A stretch of 64,000 nt of DNA from NCBI GenBank assembly GCA_030374765.1, contig JARGXX010000086.1, forward strand, positions 1,178,001 through 1,242,000. Reading direction: 5' to 3'. Under the pieces are notes generated by a model, which did not search any database, was not told where the DNA came from, and was given only the letters and a program-made list of their open reading frames with translations. A program made the position numbers and the translations under genes. This DNA is from Agarophyton chilense (taxonomy: Eukaryota > Rhodophyta > Florideophyceae > Gracilariales > Gracilariaceae). Shown one piece after another: positions 1 through 50,256 of this stretch; the stretch's first letter is position 1; each line of letters begins with the position of its first letter.

Positions 1-1
1 C

Positions 2-3000: not shown

Positions 3001-3754
3001 TACGAATCTCATGGGGGAAAAGAGGCGCGACGATAAGTCGAAAACCGCCTCCCTTGCAGAACAATCGGAGCCAACCGTCTGCGACGGTCCGACCACCCGT
3101 CCTCAAGTTCACGTGATCCGGGCGGGAGATCGGACCAATGGGCACCCGGCATCCCGGTCATTGTCTGACAGCCACCCCGCGGAGTCGGATCGCCGGGACG
3201 GTGAACCACTCACCGCCCACGGCGCACCGCACAGCGGAAACTGCCCACCAATGGGAACGCCGCATGCCGCAAATCAAGCGGAGGCCTCCGACGAACCGTC
3301 ACTAAGACGGAAGGACCCCCGCAAACTTGCGGTAAGAGCGGACTTCAGGGAAGCCCCTACCGTCCAGCGGAAAGGCAACCCGGCCGCGCCGGCAACTTCC
3401 GCGAAGCGGTACGGCAGCCCCGGCAACCCGGCAACAACCGCAGAGCGGAATGACAAACCGGGTGACCCGGAACAGGCGACGACGAGCCCAGCACCACGCG
3501 GCGCTGATGCTCGGGTCACCACCACCCGGCAAGGCCGGCAAGTTTACGTGCAGGAGTACGTCCTCGACCGAATCGTCGGACATAGCTACGATGAGCACGG
3601 GGTGCTCCAGTACCGGACCCGCTGGTACGGATACGGGCCGGAGTGGGACACCTCGGAGCCCATCGAGCACCTCCCGCGCTCTGCGGTAATGCGATACCAC
3701 CACCTTGCGGGGACCGCACTCCCAGCCACGCTGGTAAACGCCCAAGAGGGATAA
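2..3754 (+). CDS. pol: Gypsy pol polyprotein, partial (RT, RNase H, integrase, chromodomain)
   Basis: This polyprotein copies element RNA into DNA and integrates it. The frame is open at the window edge, so the N-terminus is missing; residues here count from base 8. RT shows YLDD at residues 68-71. RNase H follows (DTDAS, SEKE and TDHAS motifs). Integrase has an H-H-C-C zinc finger (HYP, GGH, CTQC) near residues 455-495 and a catalytic core. A long Pro/Arg-rich linker (about 800-1170) precedes a chromodomain (about 1180-1235, RWYGYGPEWD), which in this clade is thought to target chromatin. One oddity matters: integrase Asp1 (residue 527) and Glu (623) are present, but the second catalytic Asp is Asn (LSNNG, codon 1766-1768). 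The related element B has Asp there. The frame therefore looks intact but its integrase is probably inactive. Confidence 0.95.
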   Translation, partial: ATVFMALDANWGYWQVPVREEDRDKTAFVCHSGSYRFKRMPFGLTNAPATFQRAIDLLMSRFKWRTCLVYLDDIIVFSRNLDDHLTHVRDVMTVLRDAGITVKLRKCEFFTDTVKYLGHAIRPGRLMIEQVRIKSLCEAKEPRTQTELRSFLGLVNVYRRFIPSFSDIAAPLNALLRKGQPPKLAPFTTDQSESFRSLIKAVTTAPILSLPKPGLPYSIDTDASDHQVGGSLFQTTPKGERKPIGYWSRTLNVHERNYSVSEKECLAVVWALSTLRPYLMGVHFTLYTDHASLRWLLNIADPSGRLMRWRLRLAEFDFEVIYKKGVQNTQADALSRLPTTGEALADPEVDEIPCFTLEGETPTESDWPETGKDTMEMDELLAARENETPVPGTFVPISTEEMIREQFGDPFCTRIRARLNCGEDLPFEVNDIGYLVRTVNHRSQIVVPHTLQTRVLHLSHYPTLGGHSGGRKLYLTLRRDFHWPAMAVDCYATVQFCTQCAKNRVKLRKHSKRMKLFPARAPLEFVAIDILGPLLKTRKGNKFLFVITDRFSKLVRTVPLRKITAFTVANAFVTHWAFVYGPPIEVLSNNGKQFPSKFFQDVCRILDVKNLFTTTYHPQTNEQLERFNRTLLASLRSYVSDHPMTWDIYSDAITYAYNTQVHRTTGLTPFELVLSRTTPPVAVEPQHRVNSFPSVGPYRLKWKNWLTKLVPVARKSMERAQAAYKRDFDNRLRGPLPAPPKPGTYVFVGREYYNPRTDKRHKLSPVAEGPFRVVSSLPGTVVVDKNGDHERLSQDHIVAAPPPQAETASAPVETASDTTGTTVAPRPAVVPHPSRGLSDIPTLSGPPAMPETPGPRGQLPLRAPRSGIYTRHAVSPPSPVAPSKEGEGTRSIAEASPSQRKFNRTPRARPPRGQPASSPDANPLPRDAAVNPTARQPRKVNQGARRPEAGKRDPTDAPHRVEATEGSPHIRGRTPSVSVDTGSPAGAAQAGLASHSVENGTNLMGEKRRDDKSKTASLAEQSEPTVCDGPTTRPQVHVIRAGDRTNGHPASRSLSDSHPAESDRRDGEPLTAHGAPHSGNCPPMGTPHAANQAEASDEPSLRRKDPRKLAVRADFREAPTVQRKGNPAAPATSAKRYGSPGNPATTAERNDKPGDPEQATTSPAPRGADARVTTTRQGRQVYVQEYVLDRIVGHSYDEHGVLQYRTRWYGYGPEWDTSEPIEHLPRSAVMRYHHLAGTALPATLVNAQEG

Positions 3755-4086
3755 ACCGTGAACACGGAATGGAATGGCTGATGGCGCCACGCGCCATCTC
3801 CGTCCATGCCCCAACGCGGGGAAGGAAGCAACCGCTCACGCTATCCCAACGTCGTTGGTGGTCGTGCCAGTTACCTGGTCCGCGCGCGAAGCGCCCACCG
3901 TTAAACACGGAACTCCCAGCTAAACTGGTTCCCTGCAACTCCGGAACCCCGGTAGAAGGCCGGTACCCCGGAAAGAAAGAAGCGGACTTGGGAAAGGGCG
4001 TCGGAAAGGCGACCCTCTTCTTTTATTTCTCACTACTGGCAAGGGCGCCCTAGTGGGGCCGCCCTACATTCTACCGGAAGCTCCGG
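3755..4086. other. Convergent spacer between pol and the antisense gene (element A)
   Basis: This 332-bp stretch lies between the pol stop on the plus strand and the antisense gene stop on the minus strand. Transcripts from both strands would converge here. I see no gene in it. Confidence 0.6.
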
Positions 4087-5862
4087 TCATCTCTCCGCAC
4101 GAGGTGGACCCCCGCCCAGGCGGTTGGCTAAGGCATCTCGCATGGCGGCCACATCACCCGAGATCTCGGAAGGGCGAAGCCCCACCTCCATAAGGAAGCG
4201 CGCGATGACCTCGCCCCGCTCCGCGCCAGCGGCAGTTGCGGGCGGGCCCGCCACCGATGGAGTCGGATAGGAATCCGTTCTCACGGCATCAGCAGCCCCG
4301 GATGGAGCCGCACCACCGTATTTAACGGACCCCTCACCGGCCTCGCCGGACTCGTCATCCTCCATCGGAGCGTAACCCGAATCCTCCGGTTCGTTTTCGA
4401 CCATCGGGTCACCATCCGCATAGCCGCGGTAATAGTCGCTCGAGTCGACATACCCTCGCGGGTGGTCGGCCGGGACTTTACGCGGCGCATGCCGGTTGGC
4501 TTCCGCTTCCTCGCGGCTGATCTCGTGGTACTCCCAGGGGTCGAAGTAGATGAAATCCCCCGCTAGCGCGGTATTCCTCCCGAATCCGGGGCCAGACCCG
4601 CGACGAAGTTGAATGCGTTGGGAGTTCTCCAGCGGGACCTCATCCCACCGGACCCCCTCCACAAAGTCGAGGAGGCCCAGCATCTCTTCTTCGTTCGCCT
4701 CGCCTCCGAGGGGGATGCGAATGTCCAAACGGCGGATCGCAGCCCGCACACGCGGTGGCACGTACCACAATCGGTATTGGTCGTACGCCTCAGCGAGGAT
4801 AAAAGCCGCAGTGCGGACGGCCCATTCGATTACCACGACGGACCACCACCCCGACTGGGGATCGTTCAAGAACGACGACCCTACATAGGTGAAGACTGGG
4901 GGCAGCTTAATGAAGCAACCCCAGCACGCATCCAAGGAGGACCACCAGTCTGGGAGACTGACGTACCGACCACGTCGGTGAGCAGGCGCGATGCCCTCAA
5001 TCTCCGTGTTCTGGTACGGTACGAAATACCCGGTCCGGGCCCGCCAACGCCGCTCATCGCGGATGAAGTTCTGAAGGAAGCTCGAACGCCACTGCCGCGG
5101 TTGGTAGCGGAACTCTGCCCGAAGAATCGGTCGTCCCCAGAAAAGGGCTTCTTGCCGAGCGATCGGTGTGCCCCTCCAAGCGAGGGTTTCCAATCCGTTA
5201 AGACGGTCACAGTACGACATTTCCCCGCGAGTGCGGTAAAGGTGGACGTCGAATTCGACCTCTGGCGGTATCGGGAACTCGAAAGGCGCCCGATGGTGCC
5301 TGAGATAAGCGATCCGCACAAGCGCGGCCTGAGCCTCCGCAGAGAATTCACCGCGTCGGCGGAGTATGTGGTGTACCGGAATGGCGATACGATTACGCCA
5401 ATCCCAGTACATGGTCACCACGCCGGGCGGGTCGCCCGGGAGTATCTCCGAATTATCGGTGTAGGATTGGATCAAATCCTCGTCGCGGACAGCCAATGGG
5501 TGAAACCAAGGCGCATACCGCAACATCGCGGAGCCATGCCGAGTTCTCGGATTTGCACCCACAAGGGCGTCGTAGGTCGGCCACTGCGGTGGGTCCGCCT
5601 GTCCGCGAAGGCGGGCGCCAATACGGTGAGTTTCGTACGCGAGGTTGGTAACATCCCCAGGGTGGGGCGCGGATTGGAAGCCGGTGGAACCGCCAAGGGC
5701 GGGAGTCGCGGATGTGTTATGACGGTCGGGGTTGGACATGGTTCGTGTTGGTGTGCTGTGGTCGGAATCGGATGCGAAGAGCGTGCGTGGGATCCTTGGT
5801 GACGGTGTGTTGGTTTCCGGAGACCCGGTGTCGGACGCGCTCTTATCATGACGAGCTGCCAT
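4087..5862 (-). CDS. Antisense accessory protein of Gypsy element A, 591 aa, function unknown
   Basis: This intact 591-codon frame lies between pol and the 3' LTR but on the opposite strand. Its ATG is about 45 bp inside the LTR, so an antisense promoter in or next to the 3' LTR is the simplest source of its transcript. The N-terminal ~75 residues are Ser/Thr/Pro-rich. A globular region rich in Trp, Tyr and Arg follows (about 90-400), with the landmarks PVHHILRRR, RPILRAEFR, FVPYQN, LPDWWSS and YDQYRLWYVPPR. Next comes an acidic linker (about 480-530) and a short C-terminal helical segment (FLMEVGLRPSEISGD). I recognise no known domain. Homologous antisense genes occur in elements B and C, so the frame is under conservation and is not a shadow of GC-rich DNA. 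The function is unknown; regulation, packaging or counter-silencing are only guesses. Confidence 0.85.
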   Translation of the reverse strand: MAARHDKSASDTGSPETNTPSPRIPRTLFASDSDHSTPTRTMSNPDRHNTSATPALGGSTGFQSAPHPGDVTNLAYETHRIGARLRGQADPPQWPTYDALVGANPRTRHGSAMLRYAPWFHPLAVRDEDLIQSYTDNSEILPGDPPGVVTMYWDWRNRIAIPVHHILRRRGEFSAEAQAALVRIAYLRHHRAPFEFPIPPEVEFDVHLYRTRGEMSYCDRLNGLETLAWRGTPIARQEALFWGRPILRAEFRYQPRQWRSSFLQNFIRDERRWRARTGYFVPYQNTEIEGIAPAHRRGRYVSLPDWWSSLDACWGCFIKLPPVFTYVGSSFLNDPQSGWWSVVVIEWAVRTAAFILAEAYDQYRLWYVPPRVRAAIRRLDIRIPLGGEANEEEMLGLLDFVEGVRWDEVPLENSQRIQLRRGSGPGFGRNTALAGDFIYFDPWEYHEISREEAEANRHAPRKVPADHPRGYVDSSDYYRGYADGDPMVENEPEDSGYAPMEDDESGEAGEGSVKYGGAAPSGAADAVRTDSYPTPSVAGPPATAAGAERGEVIARFLMEVGLRPSEISGDVAAMRDALANRLGGGPPRAER

Positions 5863-5896
5863 GCCGACTTCCTCTTCGAGGTGTTCGCCCTGTCTT

Positions 5897-5906
5897 AAGG
5901 GGGGGA
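5897..5906 (+). promoter_or_regulatory. Polypurine tract of element A
   Basis: The purine run AAGGGGGGGA sits two bases upstream of the TGAAG start of the 3' LTR. This is where the plus-strand DNA primer of an LTR retrotransposon is expected. Confidence 0.75.
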
Positions 5907-5908
5907 TA

Positions 5909-6772
5909 TGAAGAGCAACGTCCTCTAGGGAGGTTTTTGGGGACTTAAGTTTTTTCCGGAGCCTCCGGCGTGCAACCTCGTTATGAGTAGGAGTAATCCG
6001 TTTTCACGGCGATGGCCGGAACGCCGGTGATGCACCGGCGGGACCGGGTGCCATACACGTGGCCGCAGCGCCCGCGCGACACGTGGCCGCCAGATTGGCC
6101 CCTTTGTTAGACGGACATTTAGCTATTTAGGATAGACTTTATTTATTCTATTCTACGGTGACTACAGTACTTAGGCCGCCGGCCTCGCGGCCGCCGGTCC
6201 AGTAAAGTCTCCCCAACAAGGGTGATCTTGGTCTTCCAGATCTTGGCTCTGGGTCGAACCGCCTGCGCGGATATACAACTCCTTACGGAGGGATTTCCCG
6301 TGGTGCACGGCTTCCCAACCCCCTTGGACGTTCAAGCAGCCTTCGTGCGTTGGGTATCTATTCCCACTTTCATGGTTCCGCCCGTGTATACGGTTTGCTA
6401 CACCCGGCAGTGCCGGCTATTCCCGAGTCCCCTCTTGCGACTCGTGTTCAACCTCGCCCTCTTGCCTCCGTTCCCATTTTCCTTCCCTTTTCCTCCCCTT
6501 CATTGGGCAATTCCCGCTATTGTGGCTCGCACTGACACCTGTCGTGCTCGCCACTCTCGTGGGTTTTGCCTCCTCAGAGGATACGCAAGCACCGCTTCGG
6601 CGGATACTCTCGGCTTCTTTCAGCCTCCCTGCGCCCGTCGCGACGGTTCGGCTCCGGCTTACACCCGGCATTGCGCGCCGATCCCTGGGAGGGCTCTACC
6701 GCGCCGGTTACCTCGTGAGAGGAAGATCCGGACGTCTTCGTAGGTTTTCCCCCTTGGGGGCATTGTCCTACA
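5909..6772 (+). repeat. 3' LTR of Gypsy element A (864 bp)
   Basis: The repeat starts TGAAGAGCAACG just after the polypurine tract and ends GCATTGTCCTACA, the same end style as the 887-bp LTRs of element B. An AT-rich block near 6115-6160 could hold a core promoter. The 9-mer ACACGTGGC occurs twice (6055-6063 and 6079-6087). The partner 5' LTR is outside the window, so the start is inferred from homology with element B and from the polypurine tract. Confidence 0.85.
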
Positions 6773-6779
6773 CTACTAC

Positions 6780-6984
6780 TGTACTAAAATGAATATAATT
6801 ACAATTACAATTTCTAACAATTACTCAACCAGAAGGTACATGTCAACACTACACGTGGCTGACAACACCTAGATGGTAGCTCGCCCGGACCTGCATGGCC
6901 GATAATCCCTCGCACCCATCACCTACAGGGTCAGTGCTGTATATTGACAACCTCAAAGGTCAGACCTTCTGCCACTATACGACA
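6780..6984 (-). repeat. 3' LTR of element C
   Basis: On the minus strand this reads TGTCGTATAG...TTTTAGTACA, 205 bp, and matches the repeat at 17839-18043 with few differences. Similarity continues 4-6 bp beyond the CA end (to about 6776), so the outer boundary is uncertain by a few bases. It contains ACACGTGGC at 6851-6859 and several ACC-N4/5-GGT palindromes. Confidence 0.88.
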
Positions 6985-6986
6985 GA

Positions 6987-6996
6987 CCTCCTTCCT
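6987..6996 (-). promoter_or_regulatory. Polypurine tract of element C
   Basis: Read on the minus strand this is AGGAAGGAGG, located two bases before the TGTCG start of the 3' LTR. It fixes the inner boundary of that LTR. Confidence 0.65.
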
Positions 6997-7679
6997 ACCC
7001 GTGAGGCACGCCCCGTGTCTCCTTTCATCAACCCATAGAGGTGTAGCAAGCGACAGCGGCGCGGGCATCGGAGTGGTGTCTGCGCACGGCGCGCGATCCC
7101 TTGAGGTTCAGAACTCGGCGCCAGTATCGGTTGGGGAGGGCGCGCGGCGACGTCGGCACACGAAATGAGCGACAACCATTCAGGTAGGGACTGTTATGAG
7201 GGCGATGCAGTGTAATTAGCGCGCTCGCGGACACCGTTTCGGTGGCGGTCCTGCTTGCTTGCGATTTTGCTTCCGCATAGCCTCCCTGTCTAACCAAGTT
7301 GGTGTCTCACCTTTTCCCGGTTACTCAAACTTCAGTTCCCTCCTAGGTCTCTGCGCAGCGCCGTCCCGCCTGGTCGTTCCCACGGCTCGACAACCCTTCA
7401 GGTAGGGCTGCCTTTAATTGGCGGTGTCGCGACAGTAACCGTTTGTCCGGCTTTTCCCTGAAGGTTTCCTGGCTTCTCGACCTTTCAGGTTTCTTCTACC
7501 TTGTAAGGATTGACTCGTGGCGCCGGTGGGGCCTGAGCCTGCGTCGATACAACCATTGAGGTGTTGGCGTGGGTCCTTGGTGGAAGCTTCCGGTTGTGAG
7601 ACCTTATTGGTGTTGAGCGCCCTCGTCGGTAATAACGCGACCTTTTTCCGGTTTTGCATTCCGTCTTACCCTCAAGGCA
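6997..7679. other. Leader between the element C 3' LTR and its antisense gene
   Basis: I find no convincing gene in these ~680 bp. The stretch is the upstream region of the plus-strand antisense gene and carries one of the densest runs of ACC-N5-GGT palindromes, for example at 7175-7185, 7233-7243 and 7293-7303. Confidence 0.5.
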
Positions 7680-10145
7680 ATGACAGGATCGCGCCGCCTC
7701 CGCGCACGCGTTCGAACCCATTCGGTACCACGTCGGTGCACCTCGCGCTGCATCGTGGATTCGTCCCCGATACCTGGAAGGAGTTGGTCGTCCCCACAAG
7801 CATCACCAGCGCTCGAGAGACGTGAGATGCCGATTACCATTGAGGTTGAAGAAGGCGGAGATTCCGAGGGGATTGATACCCCTGCAGTTATGCCTTTAAG
7901 GTTGGATTGGTCCCGTTCCACGATACCTCAAAGGTCTGGACCCGCTCGCGACCGCACGTCGGCCACTGTTGTACCCGAAATGTCAATGTCGGTACTACCG
8001 GAAAGGTTGGATCCGTTGGCCGTCTCCTCAGAACGGACCGAGGAGGCTCTACTTCAGAAGGATGAATACCCGCTGGTGTTCACCGCGGCGGTGGAGGTCG
8101 AGTCATCACCTCGTTCGTCGGGTCGAGCTACGGCCTTACCAACCATGTCAGGTAGCGGCCCATCTCGTGGCCGCGGACGCGGTGGTATTACCAAGAGGGT
8201 GAATCCCTCGACTTCGCGAACGCCTACCAACATTGGGTTTCACAGCATGCCTGTCCCTGCGACTCAGTTCTCCCCTGGGACTCCGGCTGACCCGTAGCAA
8301 CGCAGTGGTGGACTTCCTTCGACGATTCAAACCAATTGGGATCACAATCTCGCGTTCGGCGCGGCGAACCGGACGACGAGTCAGTATGGACCTTTTGGTA
8401 TTACCTCCGACCAGGTGACGAACAATGACCTGTTGAAGCACGATTGGCCTGTGGCGGTGGGGAATTCGTCACAGCCGGCAGCTCTTACCAGGCCATAATT
8501 GGATGCCTACATGGGTTTGCCCCGTTGGGACTGCGAGCGCCTTCGCTCCGTTCCATTGTTTTTGAAGAAACGGGACCAAGAATCTCAAACTCGTCAGGGT
8601 CGACTGGAATGTTACCAGAGTCGGCAGCGTCATACAACTTTGAGGTATTTCATCCCGCCGATATATCCGAGCGACTTGCCGTATGTGCGCATCGAACCGG
8701 AACTGGATTATTACCGTCGATTGGTGGTGCAAATGTGCCAGTACCCGTTTATTCCGGAGACTTACCTTCCGGTTTCACCTGACTTGGTTTCCCTGAATCG
8801 GCCTTTCACCACCCTCAATTGGGCTGACCGTAGTATGTGGGGCGAGGATGCAGCGACAGAGAGTCGAATTCGCACTAGCAACTGGTACACTTGCGTTATG
8901 CATATGTTTCATAACGTTGAGTACTTCTCACAACCTACGAAGGACGGAAACGATTGGTACATGCTTCGACCAGAGTGGTGGGAGTCCTATGAGGTTCCGT
9001 TATCACTGAGCGTGCCCACTCCGCTGGTCTTGGCGTACTTCGGGAGTCAGATTTCCAGGAACCTAGAGCGGTATTACCTCATTTGGGCGATTGCCTTCTC
9101 GAAATGGACCGTATAGGTTGCCATCCTGGCTCTGGAGGCCGCCCGTTACGGTATCGATTGGGATTGTCGCAATCCCGATTCTGACATATACCGAGAGGGT
9201 GTTCAACCTGTAGGTCGCATATTCTTCATACCTCCGAGGGTTGCCCAGGATATTTCCCGATTTGGTTACGGGAATATCGTGGAGGGGACCGATTCTACCG
9301 TGAAGGATTTGGACTCGTATCTCGAGAAGAGCAAGAATTACCTGTGGGATTCCCATCAAGGTTGGGAGGCTTTCGATCCCGCAACTTGGGAGATTGTGCC
9401 TCGCCACGCCCAATACTATCCCGGGGAGCCTTTTGTTTATGGAGCTCCCGCGAGCCCCGAACCTTATCACGGTACTGTGGAGACACCAGTTGGTAGGTAT
9501 GCTGGTCCCTTCCCGTCCGAGCCGTTATTTCAAGGTCGTAAGTCGCCTATCCCTACAGGTATGACTCCTACTCAATCGAGCTCTTCGCGGGTTGCTGGTC
9601 GGGTTCGACCTCTGTTGGCGGGTATTGCTCGGCCTCCGCTTCATTCTATGATGGATTCTCCGGCCGTGGTCGGTTTTCTGGCTCGAATTCGCCAGTCTTA
9701 CGTCACCAACTATCAGAGGGCTTGGCCTACCTCCGTGGTTGCTGCATTGACGCTCCTTGAAGGTTTGCTGCCGTGCCATGCGTACTACATGAAGGCACTG
9801 AACCAACTTGGTGAGTTCCGGAATCAGTTCCAGTTGGACATGTACCAACTGGCCACCCGTCAAGTTGCCAATCTGGCAAGCGTCTCTTCTGCTGCGCCAT
9901 CTGATCCTTTGACGGATCCCCTTCTAGGTGGAAACTTGAACCCTGCGGTTTTGCAACCTGCTCCGGCGGTTCCTTTCGTTCATCCTCTTTTAGTTTCTAC
10001 TCCTCTCCCCAGTGGCGGGGCTACCGCTCCTTCGCTACCTCTTAGGTCGATGGCTCCTAGCATTTCCGCGGGTTTTCCTCCGTGGGTAATCACTAACACG
10101 GGCCTTCCTGATTCCATTGCTCCTAAACCGACAGGTCCTTCTTAA
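7680..10145 (+). pseudogene. Antisense accessory gene of element C, broken by three in-frame stops
   Basis: This gene reads opposite to element C pol and occupies the same position as the antisense gene of element A. One frame stays readable for 2.4 kb, interrupted only by TAG 8295-8297, TAA 8496-8498 and TAG 9114-9116, with no frameshift. The start could be ATG 7680 or ATG 7827 (MPITIEVEE). Similarity to the element A protein is remote but ordered: a WW pair (RPEWWES), a YFGS block matching YVGSSF, a KWTV/LALEAA block matching EWAVR/ILAEAY, an IPPRV motif and FDP followed by WEI. After that comes a Pro/Ser-rich tail and a helical region (about 9730-9890). Function is unknown. Conservation across distant families argues that the ancestral protein mattered to the elements. 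Confidence 0.72.
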
Positions 10146-10305
10146 AGTAAATTGCTGTCTCTTCTTCTCTCCTCTACTGTTACATTTGGTTGTTCTTTCG
10201 TGTTCTTCGTTGTAGGTAATCTGACACAGATATGCGTCCACCTTCTGCGGAAAACGACGTCTCTTCTCCCCCTTCCTTAGGCCTGAGTACCACGAAGGTC
10301 TAAGG
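10146..10305. other. Convergent spacer between the antisense gene and pol of element C
   Basis: This is the short convergent interval between the end of the plus-strand antisense gene and the end of minus-strand pol, mirroring 3755-4086 in element A. No gene is visible. Confidence 0.5.
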
Positions 10306-13300
10306 TTAGCCGTCTGCGGGCATCGGCTCCTTGCGACGGCGCCAATACCTGATACGGAAGTGTGGGGGTATTGCAGCTGGGGGTTCGAGGATGTCCCCTT
10401 CTAGGCCCCAGCCGTACCACCTGACGGTGTACTTCAGACCATTGTAGGTTCGCGGGTGGCCCACCAGACGGTCAACGGGAAATTCCTCTGAGGTTTGGTC
10501 CTGATCTTTTGGGGGAACGCCACCTCCAGGGTTCATCTGTTCCGAGTTGGGAGCTTCGTTTGTGGGAGCCGGGTCGGAAGCTCCCGCTGTTACCGTGTGA
10601 GGTTCCATTTCCGTCCCTGTTAGAGGGTTCTAATCCGGATCATCCCGTTGTAGTTCATCATTCACCTTAATTGGGGTGGGGTCCTCCGAGGGTCGAGTGC
10701 GCAGAGCTACCGCTCTCGGCTCTCGGGCTAAGTTGCCCGCCTCCATGCGATGTTGAACCTTGTCAGGTGCTACCGTAATACGGTCAATTGATATCGTATT
10801 CGGTATTCCATCTTGGTCAACCGTAACGAAGTGGTCTAATGCGTTCAATACCTCATAAGGTCCCACTGATTTGGGTAGAAGCTTCGAATTGATATTTCTG
10901 TCGATAGCGTCATCGTCTGCCTCATCACCCGGTCGTGGTCTTTTACCTGAAGGTGGGTTGTCTATGTAGACATATTGTCCCGAAGATACAGAGACCACTT
11001 TGGTTATCCTACGGTCGTAGTCGGCCTTGTACGGCTTCTGGGCTGCAGTGAGGCGGCTCTCTGTATGTTTGAGAGCGCTCCTCAACCTCACAAGTGTATT
11101 ACGCTTGACCTGGGCAGGGGTCAGTGCGCCAGCTGCAGTGCTGGTGGTATGATCTCCCTGCACTACAATACCTGGGGGGTGTCGCGAAAGAACCAAATCA
11201 AAGGGAGTGGTCTGCGTTGACCGGTGTACCTGGAGGTTATAGGAGTAGGTGAGCGGTTGCACCAGCTCACCCCACCCAGTTTGGTGCTCTTCCGTAAAGT
11301 GTCGTAGCCTTCATACCAAAGTGTGGTTAAAGCACTCGACCTGTCCGTTGGTCTGCGGGTGGTATGCAGTAGTGAAATAGTGGTTGATGCCCAAGAGGTT
11401 ACATACTGCTTCGAAGAACTTCGATTCCAGGTTTGAACCATCATCGGTGAGTAAGTACATGGTGGCACCATACGGGTAGAAAAAATTGTTGAGGAACGCG
11501 ATCGCCAGCGTTGTTGACTTCGTATCCTTTACAGGTATCGCTCTCGTGAGCTTCGAGAGCCTGTCGGTGATCGCTAGAATGTGCTGATACCCGTTCTTGG
11601 TCTTGGGAAGTTATTAGAACACTGGTCAGTGGTTGAAAAGGTGAATGATCGTGACGGCCGAGGTGAGAGTCGGCCGGTCGACCAGGGTTTATATAGACTA
11701 TTTAATCTTCGAAGAAGAGGTCATAAAGAGTGTTTTCTATTGTACCATTCTAGTTGGGTGCCGTGTGAAGCATGGTTGCTTCCACGAGGTTCAATCGTGC
11801 ATGCGTGTCCAATGCCTCGTTGTCACTTGCTCGATGATGCTGACAGTGACAGATTTGTTGATTGTGACAAGAATGTCATCTATAAAGTCATGGTGACGTG
11901 TGAGATGACAGTGGTCCTTGAAATGACGATTAGGGTCAAAATGGATTATGGGACTGGACCGCCAAAGCACTGAAACTCAAATAACATACTTAAAGCATAG
12001 TATAACTAATTCATAACATAAATGCATAACATAATTGACTAAAAATCATCTGAATTCCTAACTGAAGTGGTCCTAGAAGGTCTATCGCAACAAACTCCAG
12101 CGGACCCGCTGCTGGAATCAGCTTGAGGTGCTTTCGATGCTTTCGAATACCACCGCGGGTACGGACACAGGGTTCGCATTGACCTACAAAGGTATAGACA
12201 TCATGGGCCATATGAGGCCAATGGAACAGTTGCCTCAAGGTGTAGTACATCCTGGTGGCACCGGGGTGTCCCGATAGTCGCGGGTAGTGCGCGAGATACA
12301 AGACTTTCGGGCGAAGCGCCTTCGGAACCACCTTTTGAAGGCTACCATCCAAGGTTGACCTTCTCACGATGTACCCATTGTGGCCCACATCGAACGATGA
12401 TCCTTTGAAACCACTTTGGTCAGCCAGGGTTCTGCAGTACGCATCCTGGGCCTCTTCTCGTAGAAATTCCTCTCGGGTTACGGGCATGACGTTCGTTTCC
12501 TCTAGGGTCAGTATCTGCATTGCCATGTCGGTGTTCCGCAAAACATCTTCTTCAGGTAAGTCCCAACCTCCTTCTAGGTGTTCGCCGGTACCATTTTGGT
12601 TTGATGACACCACAAATCAAGGGATATCATCGTCCACCGGTTCTGTCTCTAACCCTGAGGTGTTTAAGCGTAACATAGCGTCAGCTATGCTGTGCTTGAT
12701 ACCTGGACGGTACTGTACGTCGTATTCAAACTCCGACAGTCTCAACCTCCAACGGGCAAGTCGACCAGACGTATCTGCGAGTCCGAGGATCCACCATAAG
12801 GCATTGTGGTCCGTGCGCAACGTAAAGCGCTCACCATACAGGTATGGACGGAGCATCAACATGCTCCACACTACTGCTAGACATTCCTTCTCGGTTACCG
12901 TGTAGTTCTGCTCCGCCTCATTCATAGCGGGGCTCCAGTATCCTATAGGTAATTTGTCTCCGTTGTGCTGCTCCTGCATGAGACAACAACCAATTTCGGC
13001 ATGGGATCCATCTGTATCCAGCGTGTACGGTAGACCTGTTTTCGGTAACGCTAAGATTGGCGGCGACAACAGCGCTCGTTTCAATTCCTCAAAGGTATCC
13101 ATTTCGTCGTTCGATAGACTCTCAAACCTTTAATGTTCACCTCTCTGGAGCTTCTTGTTGAGGGGAGCCGCTATTTTCGCGAATCCCTTCACGAAGCGAT
13201 GATAAACGTTACATAAACCTATAAAGTATCGTACTTCTGTCTGGGATCGTGGCAACTTGACCTCCTGTACGGCTCCAATGTTGCTCGACGCAACTTCTAT

Positions 13301-14959
13301 GGTAGCAGGGCCTATGATGTGGCCCAGGTATTCAACCGTTGTGGTAAAGAAGACGCATTTTTGTAGCTTCAGCGTCACCCCCGCCTCAGCTAGGAGGGTT
13401 AGTACGGGGCGTAAGTGTGCAAAATGGTCTTCTACCGATCTGGAATAGATGATTACATCATCGATGTATACCAAGGCGGTTGTCCATTTAACTTTCGAAA
13501 GGATGATGTACAGCGCCCTTAGAAAGGTGGCTGGAGCATTGCGCAACCCGAAAGGCATCCGCGTGAAGAGAAACAAACCTGCATGGAACGTGAAGCTCAT
13601 TTTGTCTCGATCTTCTTCACCTACGGGTACCTGCCAATAACAACAGTTGGCATCCAACGTGATAAATATCTGCGCATCTCCCAAGGAGTCGATGCACTCA
13701 TCCATTCTAGGTATCGGGTACGAATCTTTGATGGTCACGCTATTGAGCCTCCTGTAGTCCACACAGAACCTCATACGGTTATTCCCTTTCTCCTGAACCA
13801 GAACCACGGCACTAGCCCAATCTGAGTTGGCTGGTTCAATTACACCTTCTTGGAGCATTCGATCCAATTCTTTGAGTTCTACCTCTCTCGCCTTCGGACC
13901 TGCACGGTATGGTTGCTGATAAATCGGCTTCGAGTCAGGGAGGAGCTGGATGCGATGCTTTGTGGCCTTAATTTGGCCCAGATGGCCTGACCACATGTTT
14001 TCGAACTCCTCCAGAAGGTCGATAATACGGCCCTGCAGTTGGCCGTTTTCTTCACCGATCTGGACTGTATCTTGCCATTGCCTCTCAGGGTCCGGTTCCT
14101 CTTCTTCGTCTACCGATGCCTTATCGGTTAGCTTTGATTCCAAGTTGGTATTTATCGATACCTTTGTGGTTGGGGACGCTTTTGCGCAGCCCCCTTCCTT
14201 ACCGAAGGCGACCTCGCCGAGATCAGTGTGAGCTACGTTGAAGAACCCTTGTGGTGCCGGTAGTTCTATGCCAACATTGGTATTTTTCGGCAACTTCACG
14301 TCATGACTGCTGAAGTTGCTGAGACACACCTTAAAGGGTTGATTTGGGATGTTGTCGACAATCCCGTTGGCCATCAGGGTAAGGTGTCGATGTGCTAACC
14401 TCGGATGGTTTTGTAGTATGGCCAGCCCGGGTGTCTCACACGACACCAGTACCAATATTTGGTGCATTGGCGGGATAACAACCTGTTTGGTAATGCGCAC
14501 TTTGTTGGAGACCATTTCGGTGGATATCGTCTTCTTCGGTTTGGCGAACCATCCCCGTTTGGTTTCCGTATTACCTAAAATGGCACTTCGTCCCCCCTGA
14601 CGTAGGGCGACGGTATGGGAACCAGGAAGGATCGCTTTGACATGTTTGTCAATGAGGTTAGTACCTAGTAGGCAGTCTGTCGGTAAACGGTCGACAACAA
14701 AGAATTGCAGTCTTACCTTGAGGGGTCAGAGCTGTACCACAGTGGTGAGCATACCTCGAAGGTTTAATGGGCGCACATTTGCATCCACCAGCGGGTTGTT
14801 GTCGGGAGGTCGGCTCAAGTTCCGAAGTACCGCCTCAGGTATGACGCGGGAGTTCAGGACGTTTGGGCCGGTCCCTGTATCCAACACGCAGGTGACCGGA
14901 ACCGCAAGGCGATCGGAGAAACACATTGAAGCACGTACTTTATAGTTGTTGTACTTCAT
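10306..14959 (-). pseudogene. pol: Gypsy pol of element C (protease, RT, RNase H, integrase, chromodomain), degenerate
   Basis: Domains in order on the minus strand are: aspartic protease (LDTGTGPNVL, near 14880), RT with YIDD (near 13460), RNase H (about 13100-12620), integrase with an H-H-C-C finger (about 12440-12150) and LTDDG/HPQTNGQVE core motifs (about 11450-11320), and a C-terminal chromodomain (about 10500-10350, VRWYGWG). The frame carries stops at 14726-14728 (TGA), 13130-13132 (TAA), 12617-12619 (TGA), 11311-11313 (TGA) and 10630-10632 (TAG). All are substitutions in an otherwise continuous frame. The only reading shift comes from the 452-bp insertion at 11612-12063 within integrase. 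Removing that insert and one copy of its duplication restores the GPLPK motif typical of Gypsy integrases. Confidence 0.9.
11612..12063. mobile_element. 452-bp insertion in element C integrase, flanked by GAAGT target duplications
   Basis: The integrase coding sequence is interrupted between a GPL codon block and PKTK. The five bases GAAGT lie on both sides (11607-11611 and 12064-12068), and excision of one copy plus the insert leaves an exact integrase motif. The insert encodes no protein that I can recognise. It holds a TATA-like stretch near 11690, a block of repeated TGACA/TGTCA-like pentamers (about 11835-11930) and an AT-rich end. Its ends do not show TG...CA, so it is not an obvious solo LTR. 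It contains no ACC-N5-GGT site, unlike the DNA on either side. Confidence 0.75.
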
Positions 14960-15051
14960 ATGACAAACCGGAACTGGTTGTGACGTGTTCTATTCCACCT
15001 TCAAGGTTCTGCGTATCGATTGGCCTTCCAATTGCAGTTTGGGTTGGGCCA

Positions 15052-17406
15052 TTACGCCAACCATTCGGTGTATTCCTCCTGTACGTGAGGGGTTGAGTCC
15101 AAGTTTGGTTTTTCCTCGATGGTATCGACCTGTACTGGTGTACGGGGTTGGAACCTATTTGGTGCTTGCGTTGAAGACCCATAGAGGCGTTTGTAATTCT
15201 GCATGCGAGCCTGAAGCAACTGGCCTCTCATCCCTGGAGGTAAGTTAGCGCAATTGTTCGCCAAATGGTCTGTCGCGAGACAGAACCAGCAAACGAGGCC
15301 TCGGGTTTGGGGGTCTCGCGTTACCACTGAAGGAGGCTTCGAAACCTGGTTGGTAGGAGCAGTGGCGTAGGATGTGGGTGGGGCGTTATGGGAGCTCGCA
15401 CCCTGCATCCTCTGCGAGCTTATCGCACTTGGCGGCGATGGTATCGAGTTTGGTGTACGCGTTGACGACCAATTTCCTACCGTCGAAGGTTCGAGAACCG
15501 CCCCTGGGTCGCTACCAAGTGGATAGCGGTTCCTGTGGGTACTTTGATGTGCGAGCTACCCTCTGACGTTGTTGTGTCTTCAATTTCCAGGACCGACCTT
15601 TTCGGTTTATCCTTTGAGGTTGGAGGCACGGCTGGTCTCTTTCCCAGCCGAAGGGTATCTCCAAGGCCCTGGGAGTACCGAGCCCGCCCATTGTAGTCTA
15701 CCTTTCGGTTAGTGGCCAGGTAGTTGCCTAACTGGGAACGGATCGCTTTGTCGACATTGTCGGAGAATAGCAACTTTAACCGAGAGGTAGTGAACACATT
15801 ACCACAGCAGGTTTCCAGATTCCACAGCGCGAGCGAAAAATCCGATTCGGTTTGACCAGACCTTTGGTGGTGAGCGAAGACTTCCGAATAAGCCTCTTGG
15901 ATAACCTCATCGGTGGCGTATGTTTCCAAAAGGAAATTGACCACTTCTGGGTATGACTCCAACATCTCTGTGCCATCCTCATCCATCGCTAAGGTATTGC
16001 CGTGGAGCTTACCCTGCAGCAAGTAGCATGCTTGTCCTTTCAGGTAAAACATAAATAGCCACAAAGCAGCACCCTCGAAAAAAACCATTTTGGTCACATA
16101 CAAGCTTGAACTTCTGTAGAAACTCAATCCCCGCAGTAGGATCCGTACCTGTAAAGGTTGTGTCACCCATTTGAAAGCTGAGCTTCTTGTGGTGCTTATT
16201 AATCTTCTGGGAAACCTCTTGGGTGTATTCTGAAGACTTGTTGATCAACCGATAAGTCCTGTAATCAACCGCTTTGGTGAACATATCGTTCAACAATTGG
16301 TGCACCTCCAAGTCCATTTAGGTGTCCGACTCAGATTCGGGCGACTCATTGTATCGCTTTTTCCCCTTTCGGTTCTTTTTTGACGACTTCTTCGTCGACC
16401 TGTTCGGTTTCTTATTCTTCTTACCTTTACGGTCATCATCCGACAAAGAACTCGTATCGGAACTGGAGTCTGACGAGACGGGGTCTGAATCATTCTCTCG
16501 ATTCTTTCCCCTCTTCGTCCTCCGCTTCTTCCCTTTTCGGTTTCTTCGTCGCTCATCCAACGAGTCAGACGAATCTTCCTTGGGACCACCTCCATGGGTA
16601 TCCTTTTGAACGAAACCACTAATTGGTGGCAAATAAATGTCATGAGGATCTACCTTCCCCAGGACCTCTTGACTGTGCCTTGGACCTTGCAGGTACTCAC
16701 TATCAGTAGGTAAGTGTTTGGAATGGGTGGAATGACCCATTTGGAACCCTTGTGGTATGCGCTTTGCGATGTTCACCTGTGTAGGTCGGGATTCTGCGAA
16801 TCCCTCGGAAACCCAAAGGTCCTGCACAGAACGGTAAACATGCTCCCTAGCATCTGTGAAGAGAAACTGTTTCACCATTTCAGGTATCCTGTCCGATAGC
16901 TCTTGAGCTGCTCGGTCAACCACAATACGGATAAATGCATCGACGTCCATTGAGGGCGGAACTATCCGGGTATCCGACTTCTCCTTTACGGTTAATGCAT
17001 CCTCGACCGCGAGGGTGAATAGCTCTTTCGCTCGCTATTCGAGTTGAGGCCATAGCTCCTCCGCTGCAATCTCAAGTGGTAATTTTCTTGGAGGTTCCGT
17101 TGCCATAGGAGGTGGACCATGTACCTTTACGGTTTCGTCCCGAGGGTGCCGGAGCAGCTCCTCGGGGTTTTCCAGAATCGGTTGAGCCGATGGGGCTCCT
17201 TTAGGACCTTTATGGCTTGGCGGGGCGCTCGCACCACGCGTATTCCTTTTAGGTCGTTCAATTTGTGACCAATAGTGGTATCCTGTATTGCTTTGCGGGA
17301 TTTCCTGAAACCAAATAGGTGTACGAGCGTCCAATCCTTCTCGGAATCTCGTGTGAACCGTGAAGGCACGACGAAACCTAAAAGTACTTTCGAAGTCGGG
17401 AGACAA
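15052..17406 (-). pseudogene. gag: Gypsy gag of element C, degenerate
   Basis: This is a structural protein remnant read from right to left. An N-terminal region is followed by a Ser/Asp and Lys/Arg-rich block (about 16560-16330) and a capsid-like region (FTGTDPTAGIEFL, matching FTGEDP in element B). A zinc knuckle follows (CWFCLATDHLANNC, near 15290). Lesions are TAG 17035-17037, TAA 16318-16320, a frameshift at an A7 run near 16077-16083, and another shift between about 15480 and 15400. The exact start is unclear because no strong ATG lies at the left end of the frame. Confidence 0.8.
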
Positions 17407-17674
17407 AAATGTCGTAAAATCACGTGTGGGGTATGCTACTGTCTTGTCTCGGGAGCGTAGTGACGCTCAACCGTAGGGAGCGTGTAGACGCTCAAACTTA
17501 GAAGGTGGACGTAGTAAACCTCGATGGTAAAAGGGCACCGTGAAAACCCACAGGGGCAAACGGCGGGGCAACTAGCCGATACCGTGTAGGTGAACAATGG
17601 TAGGCGTCGACGCGCGGTGAAACCTATGTAATATTTGAGAAACAATGTACCAAAAGGTATAGTTGTGACCCAAA

Positions 17675-17838
17675 TGGTGCCTGTCTTTCACAGATTAGGA
17701 TGGGGGAGGTGCAGTTCCCTATATGCAGTGGACTGCACTCTCCAGATCACCCGGGAGGTGCCAGAAAGGCACGGTCTCTGACCTAGTGCCAGAGACCTGG
17801 CCAGCACTGGCTACAGTGCCAGGTGGCCACTCCACTAC
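17675..17838 (-). other. 5' leader and primer-binding region of element C with serial hairpins
   Basis: Directly inside the 5' LTR lies a run of short perfect inverted repeats: 17709-17715 with 17732-17738, 17758-17762 with 17768-17772, 17773-17780 with 17790-17797 (8-bp stem), the palindrome 17800-17811, and the palindrome 17823-17830. On the minus strand the sequence after the LTR includes TGGAGTGGCC, a possible primer-binding site, but I cannot name its tRNA. In retroelements this region carries packaging and dimerisation signals, so structured RNA is expected. Confidence 0.5.
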
Positions 17839-18043
17839 TGCACTAAAATGAATATAATTACAATTACATGTACTAACAATTACTCAACCGGAAGGTACAT
17901 GTCAACACTACACGTGGCTGACAACACCTAGATGGTAGCTCGCCCGGAGCTGCATGGCCGATGATCCCTCGCACCCATCACCTACAGGGTCAGTGCAGTA
18001 TATTGAAAACCTCATAGGTCAGACCTTCTGCCACTATACGACA
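17839..18043 (-). repeat. 5' LTR of element C
   Basis: This is the direct repeat partner of 6780-6984, with the same 205-bp length and no visible indel. It carries ACACGTGGC at 17910-17918. The DNA to its right is unrelated to the element and marks the element boundary. Confidence 0.88.
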
Positions 18044-19505: not shown

Positions 19506-19510
19506 TGCGA
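19506..19510 (+). other. Target-site duplication TGCGA, left side of element B
   Basis: TGCGA directly precedes the 5' LTR of element B. The same five bases, as TCGCA, flank the outer side of the LTR at 49335-50221. This identifies the two LTRs as the ends of one insertion. Confidence 0.85.
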
Positions 19511-20397
19511 TGAAGGACAATGCCCTTTAAGGGGGTTTCTTGGCAGGACTTAGGAAGTTCGCTCGCTTGAGGACTAGCTTGGTCTATGACAAGCTATACC
19601 GCTATTGCGTTCTGACGGCTGGTTCGGACCGGAAGTGCACACGGGTGGAATACGTGAACTGCACGGATGCCAACGCTCGAGTACGAGGCGTGCCACACGT
19701 GGCCCGGATTCTTCCTAATGGTTAGTATTATTTAGTAATTTTTAGTATTTATTTGGCTACGCTATCGCTATTTAGTGTCTATTTTTCGGGCGCGCGCCCA
19801 CTGTCAGGGGCCGCGCGCCACACTACTTAGGAGTTTGAGCACTGCTCCCCAGTTAAGACCCTCTTGGGAGACCAAGGAGGGAGTCTTGGCTCTGAACTCT
19901 TCGCCTTCGGCGCGTCTTCATCGCATACTGCGTGAGCGCCCGTTGCACGTTAGTTCATCCACCCCTCTGTCGACCAGAGTGCTACCACCACCGTGGGTTC
20001 ATATTTAATCGACGACACTTGTCGTAGTCTCGCCCCTGTATAGGGTTTCGCCCCTGTTTTCCTCTTGTTCTCCTTTTTGGCTCTCGTAAGTGGCCGCACC
20101 CCTCACCTCGCTCGTCCACCTCATACGAGTGTTTCCTCGCTCCTTTTCCGACAATCTCCGTGGTACCGCTCCGCATAAGATTGGTCACACCCCCGGACTG
20201 TGCCGTACTCACCTAAACACTCTAAATATATCCCTCCGGATTGGCCTCGGTCTTACACCCGACTCCGTCGTGCCTTTCCAGAGTGGCTCTATTTCTGTGC
20301 TCCGCTGGGACGCGTCTCCTCCGCCTGAGGCGTGTCTCTCAAGAGAGGAAGATCCCGAACATCTTCGTGGTGTCTCCGCTCCAAGCGTTGTCCTACA
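19511..20397 (+). repeat. 5' LTR of element B (887 bp)
   Basis: It begins TGAAGGACAATGCC and ends GCGTTGTCCTACA, which are near-perfect inverted terminal sequences. It is exactly as long as the LTR at 49335-50221. I count 11 substitutions in the first ~220 bp of the pair, so the insertion is not recent. It has AT-rich blocks near 19720-19755 and ACACGTGGC at 19695-19703. Confidence 0.92.
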
Positions 20398-20400
20398 AAC

Positions 20401-20417
20401 TGGTCTCCCGACTTAAG
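20401..20417 (+). promoter_or_regulatory. Primer-binding site of element B
   Basis: TGGTCTCCCGACTTAAG starts three bases after the 5' LTR. It begins with TGG, complementary to a tRNA CCA end, as expected for tRNA-primed reverse transcription. I cannot assign the tRNA species. Confidence 0.65.
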
Positions 20418-20563
20418 AAGTTTGAGTCGGGCACACTCAGTCACGATTAATCGGAAAGAGGACTCACAAATTGAGGTTGATCTCAGTTGCCCTCTTTGAG
20501 AAAGTTTCTTGGCCCCACTAGCCGATCGGGTTTGGATACTCACGTGTAACGGACTCTGATCTC

Positions 20564-22474
20564 ATGTCGTCCAAAGACCGTCCGAGGACGCGGAGTCAAA
20601 CCGGTGCACCGGAACCCTCGCAACCATCCCGTATCCCGGTCCGTTCACGGTCTCATACCGGTCGATCGACTGGCGTGCCAGGTGGAAGGACCTCGAGACC
20701 TCCTGTCTCTGATTGGACACCCCCAGCAAGTGGAGCAGGACCGGCGTCTGCCGCCGCCCTGATGCTCTCCCCTGCTAGGGATGTCACCCCCCATCCCAGC
20801 CTTGCAGCTGTGGAAGAGCAACTCCGCTCTATGCGGGAAGCTCAATTCATCCTTGCAGAGTAGTTCGATTCCCTTTGCAAGAAGGTAAACGACACTGCTA
20901 CGCAGGATTTTTCTGAGGACCTCCATGTCCTCCGTGCGGATGTGAACTCGATTCTAGAGTCCCTTGGTGGACCCTCGGCCCTTATCAAGGACGACGCGGA
21001 CAAGTTATCACGCGTCCGAAGCCGTCTCGAGACGTTGGAACAAACCCTAATGTCGGGGGATGATCCGGTCGAGCCGGTTGCAGTATCCCACAAGGGATGT
21101 AAGGAAGGGAACCGCCAGGCTCGAAAGAAGCGAAGGAACACGGATCCCGAACCGTCGGACTCCTCATCCTCGGAGTCCGACTCTTCCGATTCATCGGTGG
21201 AAGTAGCTCGCCGTGAGCGTTCCTCACGCTCTAAGCGGTCAACAGCCACCCATGGTGTGATCCGCGCCCGCACGAAGGGAAGGAAGCACACAGGTTTGAA
21301 GGAGCTGAAACCGACCAATTCGCTCTTTAAGAAGCTCTTATCATACCGGTACTACCGTTTGGAGGACTCCTCTTTGGATCGTACACCCCATGGTACGGGA
21401 AGAGTGAAGGGCTGCATCAAGCGAATGCATCTCTCACTTGGCAACCAGTTGTTTACTGGAGAAGACCCAATATTAGTGTTGGATTTCTTGGCACGCTTTG
21501 TCGCGGGAGCTGACATCCTTGGAATGAACGAGGGACAGGCCTACATTGCCTTACGGTACTTCTTACGTGGGCTTGCAGAAGACCAGTATCACTCTGTCAG
21601 AGGTACATCACGCGCGTCCGAAGGGGGGGTAACCTGCTGGCCCGAAGCAGTTCAGTACCTCCTGAGGTCGTATGGTACTAACTCCGCCATTCAGCAGGCG
21701 ATACGCGCCCTGCGGGACAACCGCCAACGTCCAGGCGAGTCGGAAACCGAATATTCGTCGCGCCCTAACAAGGACTTCCACCGCTGTTGCAATATTTACC
21801 CCACTGAAGAGCGTTGTACCATGTTTGTCGATGGTTTGGACCCGGCGATCCGGACTCTTGTTGCTCGACGTCGAGAAGATAGAACTAAAGCCACGTATTT
21901 GGAACTAGTGCATTTCGCTCGCGCAGAAGGTGAAGCCCTGCGCGCACGCACCCCTGGATCCAGGCTTAGGTCCGCAAAAGCGTTGATGTTACAACCGGGT
22001 ACCCGGTCAGCTTCGATGATCGACGAACAGGCCTCTCGAAGGGATTATGATAACGTGCAGCTAGCCCATAGCGACGTTCATTCCATCCCGACAACGGAGT
22101 TACCCTCAACCTTGGACGAGTCACAATACGTGATTGGGGATGACACCCTACTCTACGCGGATAAGGGTCGCGTCCGTGTGCCACGCGTCCCACACGAGAG
22201 TGGTTATGTCCGCTTTTCGCGTCCTGGTTCGAGAGATACACGCCCCGCGGTGAAGTTCGCCGAGCCTCGCCACCCAACGCCGGCTTCTGGTTTGATTTCT
22301 CATTTCTGCTACAAACCAGGCCATACTTCTCCACAATGTGTGTTGTCTCTCCGAGAGTGGGCACAAGTCGTAGTCAATTACGAGGCCCTATCCCCGGAGG
22401 ACAAAGCAGCTGTTCCGATTGCATCGTATATCCGTGCTCGAACGGATGTTCCACGTCACGTGTCGCTTCCCTGA
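20564..22474 (+). pseudogene. gag: Gypsy gag of element B (one in-frame stop)
   Basis: This is the structural capsid polyprotein. The N-terminal ~100 residues are Ser/Pro/Arg-rich. The frame is interrupted by TAG 20861-20863 and then continues in phase to 22474. A Ser/Asp block and a basic block (about 21150-21240) precede the capsid-like region (FTGEDPILVLDF to about 21960). A zinc knuckle lies near 22300, but its first cysteine is serine (S-H-F-C-Y-K-P-G-H-x4-C). With one stop and a damaged zinc ligand it is unlikely to be functional. Pol starts about 150 bp downstream in another frame. Confidence 0.88.
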
Positions 22475-22626
22475 GCTCGGGTGGAACCTGCACCGGAATC
22501 CCGTGTCACCGACGTGGTCGGTCACCCCACCGCTTCTGGGGTACCTTCTGGACCTGATGCCAAGGCGTTGCCCGCTCAACGCCCTGAGCAGCCGCCTACG
22601 GCGGAGCAGGCCCAGAAAAACTAAAT

Positions 22627-27622: not shown

Positions 27623-27834
27623 GAAGACACCCGATGGGGATAAAGGAACAGAAGATCTGGATAAGGACCCTTGGAAGGAGGAGAAGATGCACAGAAGACC
27701 TGGAGAAGAACACTCAGAAGAAGTGGAAGAGAAGAAAGAAAACAAATACGTCATAGACGGAAGCTGTTTACTATTTTCGAAGTTGCTGCACACACTACCG
27801 CACAGCGGGACATACTAACCAAGATCACAACGGG
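27623..27834. other. Convergent spacer between pol and the antisense gene (element B)
   Basis: This short purine-rich interval lies between the plus-strand pol stop and the minus-strand antisense stop, as in element A. No gene is visible. Confidence 0.5.
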
Positions 27835-34278: not shown

Positions 34279-34280
34279 TA

Positions 34281-50221: not shown

Positions 50222-50222
50222 T

Positions 50223-50233
50223 GTCCCCCTTCT
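50223..50233 (-). promoter_or_regulatory. Polypurine tract of element B
   Basis: Read on the minus strand, AAGAAGGGGGA immediately precedes the 3' LTR. Confidence 0.7.
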
Positions 50234-50256
50234 TAGGTGACGAACACGCCGTCGAC

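Follow-up and report, generated by a model that had tools for sequence, protein, structure and literature searches.

Element C, a Gypsy-type long terminal repeat (LTR) element of the red alga Agarophyton chilense, carries the two-fold symmetric dyad ACC-N5-GGT from one LTR to the other, and three further families, A, B, and F, carry dyads of their own. The window analyzed here is a stretch of 64,000 nucleotides (nt; G000:C86:1178001-1242000), and the genome searched comprises 79.8 Mb in 135 contigs. The observation is real, strong, and wider than first noted in a preliminary description of the stretch. We tentatively favor the interpretation that these family-private dyads are bound by a protein encoded by the elements themselves, possibly the product of an antisense gene as the first candidate, which would shield or activate their own copies against silencing.

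The ACC-N5-GGT dyad in element C

Element C includes the following features (RT, reverse transcriptase; ORF, open reading frame; aa, amino acids):

6775..18043, minus strand: element C, Gypsy-type LTR element with gag-pol on the minus strand and an RVT_1 match
6775..6984, minus strand: 3' LTR (left copy) with 3 sites, 95.2% identical to the right copy in a self-comparison
6985..8200, no strand: leader plus the beginning of the antisense region, the densest internal stretch, with 14 sites starting at 7175-8190
7680..10145, plus strand: antisense gene, in the window copy split into three ORFs, recognized by homology to the antisense proteins of A, B, and F
10630..14515, minus strand: pol region (RT, RNase H, integrase), interrupted, assigned by Pfam and similarity
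11612..12063, no strand: insert mostly missing from copy L063, which aligns on both sides
15477..16950, minus strand: ORFs in the gag position, putatively gag from their placement
17834..18043, minus strand: 5' LTR (right copy) with 3 sites, assigned by LTR identity and site count

Sites were counted as exact matches to ACC-N(k)-GGT in 6867-18020 with k = 0-15, and were compared with three null models, namely the element's own triplet frequencies, order-2 Markov simulations (n = 200), and codon-preserving shuffles, in which synonymous codons were permuted inside the open frames (n = 1000). Element C contains 63 exact sites with k = 5, located between 6867 and 18019, and 20, 29, 15, and 8 sites with k = 4, 6, 7, and 8, respectively; each of the remaining spacings yields 2-8 sites. 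N5 is the peak, with N4, N6, and N7 as its shoulders, and the earlier statement that the N4 and N6 variants center on N5 agrees with these counts. The enrichment first reported was real, although the count of about 54 was too low, as was the expectation of 2.75, which becomes 7.5 when the element's own triplet use is considered, C being rich in both ACC and GGT.

The abundance of these two triplets is what could be said in favor of chance, base composition, or codon bias as the origin of the sites. Nevertheless, the Markov expectation is 7.3 and none of the 200 simulations reaches 63, with ACC-N5-GGT ranking first in C in a dyad scan that covered every pair of triplets at gaps of 0-25. The codon-preserving shuffles, a check that had been set beforehand, yield the same result for both coding strands: 17 sites are present in the antisense ORF of copy L063 compared with 3.3 in the shuffles, and 19 compared with 5.4 in the six gag/pol ORFs of the window copy (0/1000 in each case), with N4, N6, and N7 likewise raised. 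These controls, as well as the sharp dependence on spacing, refute such an origin, the probability of which we consider negligible.

The sites are found throughout the element regardless of the coding strand, as initially described, with densities per kb of 14.3 in the LTRs, 10.1 in the leader, 6.1 in gag, 5.3 in the antisense region, and 3.6 in pol. The enrichment ends with the element, again as described: the last site starts at 18009 and the next ACC-N5-GGT in the window is at 22508. The insert at 11612-12063, reported to lack sites, indeed has none. The adjoining 92-bp piece of the element, 12064-12155, aligns with L063. Another insert, 2.5 kb long and with a DDE_1/Tc5-like transposase match, is located inside the C copy L063 (6517-9045), and the single ACC-N5-GGT found in it corresponds to the chance level. 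Tandem duplication as the origin of the sites was ruled out, as Tandem Repeats Finder detected only one 27-bp array and the flanks of the sites are unrelated.

Other copies of C carry the dyad as well. All 19 other antisense-region loci that were fetched (~3.6 kb each) contain 16-23 sites. At least 151 genome matches were found for one piece of the C antisense protein and at least 40 for the LTR and leader. In the structure of C, Pfam matched the RT, the RNase H and integrase pieces were recognized from their resemblance to those of A, and a Pfam search with the ORFs in the gag position gave no family above the cut-off.

The flanks and the spacer of the sites in C carry little information, with A/T preferred in the positions adjoining the arms, as would be the case for the many independent two-fold symmetric sites with free spacers originally envisaged. 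Changes in both arms that preserve pairing are found at N5 at or below expectation in seven of nine cases, the exceptions being GCC/GGC (6 vs. 2.0 expected) and ACT/AGT (5 vs. 1.5). Changes of the first base in one arm are tolerated, with 24 instances of TCC-N5-GGT (6.8 expected) and 10 of ACC-N5-GGA (3.8 expected). Since a change in one arm is tolerated and paired changes in two arms are mostly not favored, the arms in C behave like the half-sites of a dimer, in which the sequence rather than the pairing is kept. No clear strand preference of the sites was found, with a few single classes reaching p of 0.01-0.03, uncorrected.

Sister families and their own dyads

The features of the other families are listed below.

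1..6772, plus strand: element A, with dense CC...GG palindromes, extending upstream to contig position 1173377
8..3754, plus strand: A pol ORF, 1248 aa, with RT, RNase H, and integrase (Pfam)
4087..5862, minus strand: A antisense gene, an open ORF of 591 aa, candidate reader for A
5909..6772, plus strand: A 3' LTR, 97.7% identical to the upstream LTR (L059 377-1240)
19510..20397, plus strand: B 5' LTR, 95.6% identical to 50222-49335, its role as an LTR assigned from its place
20942..26272, plus strand: B gag and pol ORFs, with CGC-N5-GCG and CGT-N5-ACG dyads (Pfam of copy L060)
27835..28482, minus strand: fragment of the B antisense gene, which ends near 28460 and is longer in copies L060 (582 aa) and L062 (622 aa)
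49335..51615, plus strand: B-family fragment with an LTR and part of the antisense gene, 94% identical to B copy L060 over 274 aa
L064 3423-5360, minus strand: F antisense gene, an ORF of 645 aa

Family F is a fourth Gypsy family, found at L064 1-5600 beside a copy of A, and has dyads similar to those of A. The A pol ORF comprises RT, RNase H, H2C2, and rve in that order, together with a weak match, below the cut-off (20.7 bits vs. 25.1), to the chromodomain that marks the end of pol in the chromovirus branch of Gypsy. The assignment to Ty3/Gypsy is based on the LTRs of A and C, as well as on the order RT-RNase H-integrase with each domain matched.

In A (1-6700) and B (20400-28460), ACC-N5-GGT occurs four and five times, respectively, which is the chance level; the counts of about one and none given previously were too low, although the absence of enrichment was correctly seen. 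Compared with simulations, the numbers are 7 vs. 5.3 for A, 5 vs. 3.0 for B, and 5 vs. 2.6 for F (28/200). Other DNA of the window is near background (5 vs. 2.0, 12/200), as expected at the outset for unrelated sequence. What did not hold is the notion that A and B are free of such a feature, since both carry their own dyads instead. The dyad scan places CCG-N6-CGG at the top in A (52 vs. 10.4), together with CCG-N7-CGG (43) and CCC and CGC variants. The corresponding dyads are CGC-N5-GCG (16 vs. 3.1) and CGT-N5-ACG (13 vs. 3.4) in B, and CGC-N4-GCG (20 vs. 3.5) and CGT-N5-ACG (15 vs. 2.9) in F; each of these dyads is reached in 0/200 simulations. The top dyads of A, B, and F thus differ but are alike in their geometry. 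In the gag/pol ORFs of B, codon shuffles give 3.2 for the nine CGC-N5-GCG sites (3/1000) and 3.0 for the ten CGT-N5-ACG sites (0/1000).

The two kinds of sites nearly exclude each other. The 30 A loci (L009-L038) hold 1-9 ACC-N5-GGT each per 4.8 kb, the 8 of L009 including those of a neighboring C. The density of CC-stems, defined as palindromes CCNN-loop-N'N'GG with a loop of 3 to 5, is 14.3-21.6 per kb in 30/30 of these loci and 0-1.7 per kb in 19/19 C antisense loci (L040-L058). A comparable excess of these sites is absent from the Tc3-like and Helitron-like parts of the window, which have no antisense gene as far as searched.

A host DNA-binding factor, either an activator or an architectural protein exploited by the elements, would also yield such sites if it were two-fold symmetric, and the sites of C are densest in the LTRs. 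However, several host factors would be required for four families whose dyads differ, and the sites extend over coding DNA at a distance from the LTRs, making this explanation distinctly unlikely.

Palindromes of the A type

Element A contains 160 palindromes of the form CCNN-loop-N'N'GG in 9.8 kb. In A and F, these are 11-13 bp long, with CC/GG ends and sharp limits. Both inner pairs of CC-N8-GG in A are Watson-Crick in 77 of 148 instances; in the coding sequence, this holds for 39 of 82, and 300 codon shuffles average 7.4 and do not exceed 17. CC-stems are present at 14.9-24.1 per kb in the four segments of A in the window and at 18.0, 18.0, and 9.0 per kb in three blocks of L059, as compared with 3.4-5.5 in B, 0.9 in C, and 0-1.4 in other DNA of the window. 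When tested against 200 codon shuffles per ORF set, their numbers are 56 vs. 13.2 in pol and 30 vs. 5.2 in the antisense gene of A, as well as 33 vs. 7.1 and 26 vs. 6.0 in the same genes of F (0/200 each). The respective values for gag/pol and the antisense gene are 26 vs. 8.7 (0/200) and 9 vs. 3.6 (4/200) in B, and 6 vs. 3.0 (9/200) and 2 vs. 3.5 (168/200) in C. Stems that start with GG show no comparable excess in these shuffles, the highest being 5 vs. 2.0 in the antisense gene of B (12/200).

Neighboring sites in A are 17-22 or 37-43 apart, and rarely 24-36. The best period of the CC-minus-GG wave is 21.1 in A (0.153, the largest of 60 simulations being 0.069) and 21.7 in F (0.217, largest simulated 0.097), and a fit of a damped cosine gives 21.5 and 22.0, respectively. 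In B the rhythm does not reach significance (0.078, compared with 0.124 for the largest of 60 simulations; 0.090 vs. 0.096 in copy L061), and C and two further stretches show none. A distance of ~21-22 bp is close to two turns of B-DNA. Such a pitch suits binding to the duplex, and an RNA footprint of ~20 nt would give the same pitch.

In 75 of 88 cases, the pair just outside the A palindromes consists of two purines or two pyrimidines. Directional arrays based on this mismatch were considered and rejected, as neighbors are uncorrelated (61 of 125 alike).

The antisense gene as a candidate reader

An antisense gene follows pol in all four families, A, B, C, and F. Its position between pol and the 3' LTR was seen in A and C with mapped LTRs, and in B from the fragment adjoining an LTR. 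Broken in the window copy of C, the gene has open-frame copies elsewhere, such as the 875 aa one in L063. The antisense proteins of A, B, and F are 46-53% identical to one another, and that of C is 26-27% identical to them over 164-242 residues. In turn, identity to the other families is 38-55% for the RT, RNase H, and integrase pieces of C, and the pol pieces of A and B share 62-70%. The antisense protein thus diverges more than the pol pieces, as expected for the partner of a changing site. Both the type of site and the antisense protein differ most in the same family, C.

The preliminary description had dismissed the antisense gene as a weak candidate, on the grounds that A and B have it without the motif; as A, B, and F have the gene together with their own enriched dyads, this argument falls. 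Present in all four families and most diverged in C, the gene provides the leading candidate for the predicted reader of the sites. A stronger version, in which the diverging antisense protein would read a family-private code that includes coding DNA (the palindromes of A and F, the dyads of C), coat the DNA of its own family along its length, and so evade silencing or distinguish self from other families, appears doubtful to us.

The A antisense protein is 60% identical to a protein of Gracilariopsis chorda, and part of the C antisense protein (half of the query) is 72% identical to an Agarophyton chilense protein, matches that by themselves make a gracilariacean host very probable. Relatives outside the genome amount to seven proteins, with none found in the viral_contigs and genome_contigs collections, and a search for a solved structural relative found none. 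Family D is a further antisense-gene family, close to P0003, with open frames of ~611 aa in at least 68 places of the genome. On one contig, three A antisense genes of equal score (L024, L025, and L026, at G000:C68 3138181, 3147378, and 3156575) are exactly 9197 bp apart, a spacing that corresponds to a tandem array of an A-derived unit.

Interpretation of the sites

In the mechanism that we tentatively prefer, each Gypsy-type family would carry its own kind of two-fold symmetric site from LTR to LTR, in coding and noncoding DNA, with the version of C being ACC-N5-GGT with T allowed for A in one arm. The element's own protein, for which the antisense product would be the first candidate, would bind only the sites of its own family, presumably as duplex DNA, and its most likely use would be to keep the copies of that family protected from, or active despite, silencing by the host, the role that VANC has for VANDAL DNA transposons. 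C looks like a case of duplex recognition and the paired free positions of A look like hairpins; duplex binding is ranked first because the finding concerns C, in which sequence and not pairing is kept.

Several observations speak against this mechanism. Over 26 C loci, the arms are conserved at 95.6%, compared with 93.6% for lone ACC/GGT and 91.6% for all positions; the difference between arms and lone triplets is marginal (p = 0.07 by permutation), so that conservation supports selection weakly. The pair just outside the sites of C is complementary in 4 of 63 cases, with 15.3 expected by permutation, and the one outside the A palindromes in 6 of 88, being anti-complementary. Within CCG-N6-CGG of A, the bases of the fourth pair vary freely and yet form a Watson-Crick pair in 48 of 52 instances (13.8 expected by permutation), and within CCG-N7-CGG the fourth pair is Watson-Crick in 40 of 43 and the fifth in 30 of 43. 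Paired free positions are not predicted by a dimer on duplex DNA, and A fits duplex binding only with an extra assumption. The signal of B is weak, with CGC-N5-GCG not significant in its antisense ORF (2 vs. 1.2 in codon shuffles, 327/1000), and a control region at 31-49k has a top palindrome of its own, contiguous CGGCCG (9.6 vs. 5.8), which exceeds simulations. With regard to the reader, Gag and integrase likewise differ between families, and the co-divergence of the site and the antisense protein rests on four families. The antisense proteins have no Pfam family above the cut-off and no recognized DNA-binding domain, and two models have mean predicted local distance difference test (pLDDT) scores of 41.3 and 39.4, with no usable fold.

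The strict pairing at a position of free identity, together with the exact ends of the stems, would be explained by stem-loops in genomic RNA or complementary DNA (cDNA), with stem ends specific to each family, read by Gag or another protein of the element for packaging or reverse transcription. Stems of 4-5 bp with loops of 3-5 are in excess in A, F, and B, and in the aligned pol of A and B 15 of 110 changed pairs are compensatory (p = 0.008); slid controls gave 10 of 205, and some of the sites are counted in both directions of the comparison. However, compensation is small or absent elsewhere (A to F 1/38, F to A 1/23, B to F 1/7, F to B 3/19), with zero compensatory pairs among 29 copies of A. 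G.U is absent at the fourth pair (0/52 and 0/43), and deviations to G.U and to A.C are alike, being 12 and 9 vs. 7 and 7 in A, 21 vs. 22 in C, 19 vs. 15 in B, and 17 vs. 20 in F. The folding z scores of the sense and antisense strands are also alike (A -0.88/-1.02, C -0.59/-0.66, B -0.46/-0.34, F -0.33/-0.19, other DNA -0.24/-0.07), and the large excess is limited to stems with CC at the 5' base, with none for those based on GG. In C, the stem is 3 bp long and changes that preserve pairing are not favored. We consider hairpins unlikely overall; for C in particular, an RNA hairpin is unsupported by the arm changes, the G.U and A.C deviations, and the folding z scores.

A functionless mutational process, for example errors of hairpin-templated reverse transcription, could also make palindromes. 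It would account for the strictly Watson-Crick pairs of A, which are of any identity and show no strand bias, and for the fact that, within the window, palindromes are found only in retroelements. The fixed CC...GG polarity, the exact ends with further pairing avoided, the 21-bp rhythm in A and F, and the fixed ACC/GGT sequence in C all argue against this process, which we regard as very improbable.

Other features of the window

The 3' end of B is truncated by two plus-strand ORFs (454 and 147 aa) at 28470-30314, which on visual inspection seem to resemble a piggyBac transposase, with no Pfam match at E 0.01. The region 32972-36405 consists of 1.3-kb inverted repeats, 98% complementary and 816 nt apart; Tc3-like transposase domains are encoded by a 416-aa ORF that the right repeat overlaps. 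Several ORFs are located at 41736-46921, one of them with PIF1 helicase domains, making this region Helitron-like by its helicase; it is flanked by direct repeats of ~300 nt at 39410/41321 and 40314/47160.

Comparison with known systems

Among the titles and beginnings of abstracts listed by searches of open-access PMC text (closed journals being outside these searches), none reports such sites in LTR retrotransposons or the red algal antisense genes described here. Antisense ORFs of plant Gypsy elements, such as Grande gene23, RIRE2, and Retand TRP28, are described as having no known function in the part of PMC7264820 considered here, and the Retand TRP28 proteins are predicted to bind DNA according to the corresponding part of PMC11963269. 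What the algal elements share with them is a gene that lies between pol and the 3' LTR and runs on the opposite strand. Unlike in Retand, the red algal antisense protein has no match to TRP28 (Transposase_28, PF04195; 12 proteins, E up to 5), and no self-directed sites are described for the plant ORFs in the portions of these two articles that were available. If the stronger version, with the antisense protein as the reader of a family-private code, is true, the antisense genes of Gypsy elements would gain a function. The dyads provide a precise candidate ligand for the red algal counterparts of the plant ORFs.

The dispersed packaging signals of RNA viruses, as presented in the available part of PMC6281560, are similar in that many short stem-loops are spread through a genome. 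Unlike those signals, the algal sites are strictly paired without G.U (in A), have no clear strand preference, and form stems of 3 bp in C.

The closest resemblance is to the VANC anti-silencing proteins of Arabidopsis VANDAL transposons, an analogy that had already been drawn and that fits in outline. In the parts of PMC5735166 used here, VANC21 binds YAGTATTAY and the targets of VANC6 carry AGTTGTCC/AC, the VANDAL motifs forming same-orientation arrays that have grown as tandem repeats, mainly in noncoding DNA. As in VANC/VANDAL, the algal motifs are short and private to a family, dense in its own copies and rare elsewhere (PMC5735166 and PMC10398659, both as far as consulted). Related families have different motifs in both systems, and here the candidate reader is a gene of the element that diverges between families. 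The analogy does not extend to noncoding tandem arrays in one orientation or to the class of DNA transposons: the algal sites are palindromic, lie in coding DNA of both strands, and include no tandem repeats, and, unlike VANDAL, a Mutator-like DNA transposon, A and C have LTRs and RT, RNase H, and integrase. The algal system thus resembles VANC but is no member of VANC/VANDAL. Laid over sequence that codes in both directions, the sites indicate that the element is constrained by something besides its proteins; if the proposed recognition is true, self-recognition of the VANDAL type, as it appears in the sources cited above, would extend to LTR retrotransposons and to a distant lineage, that of a red alga.

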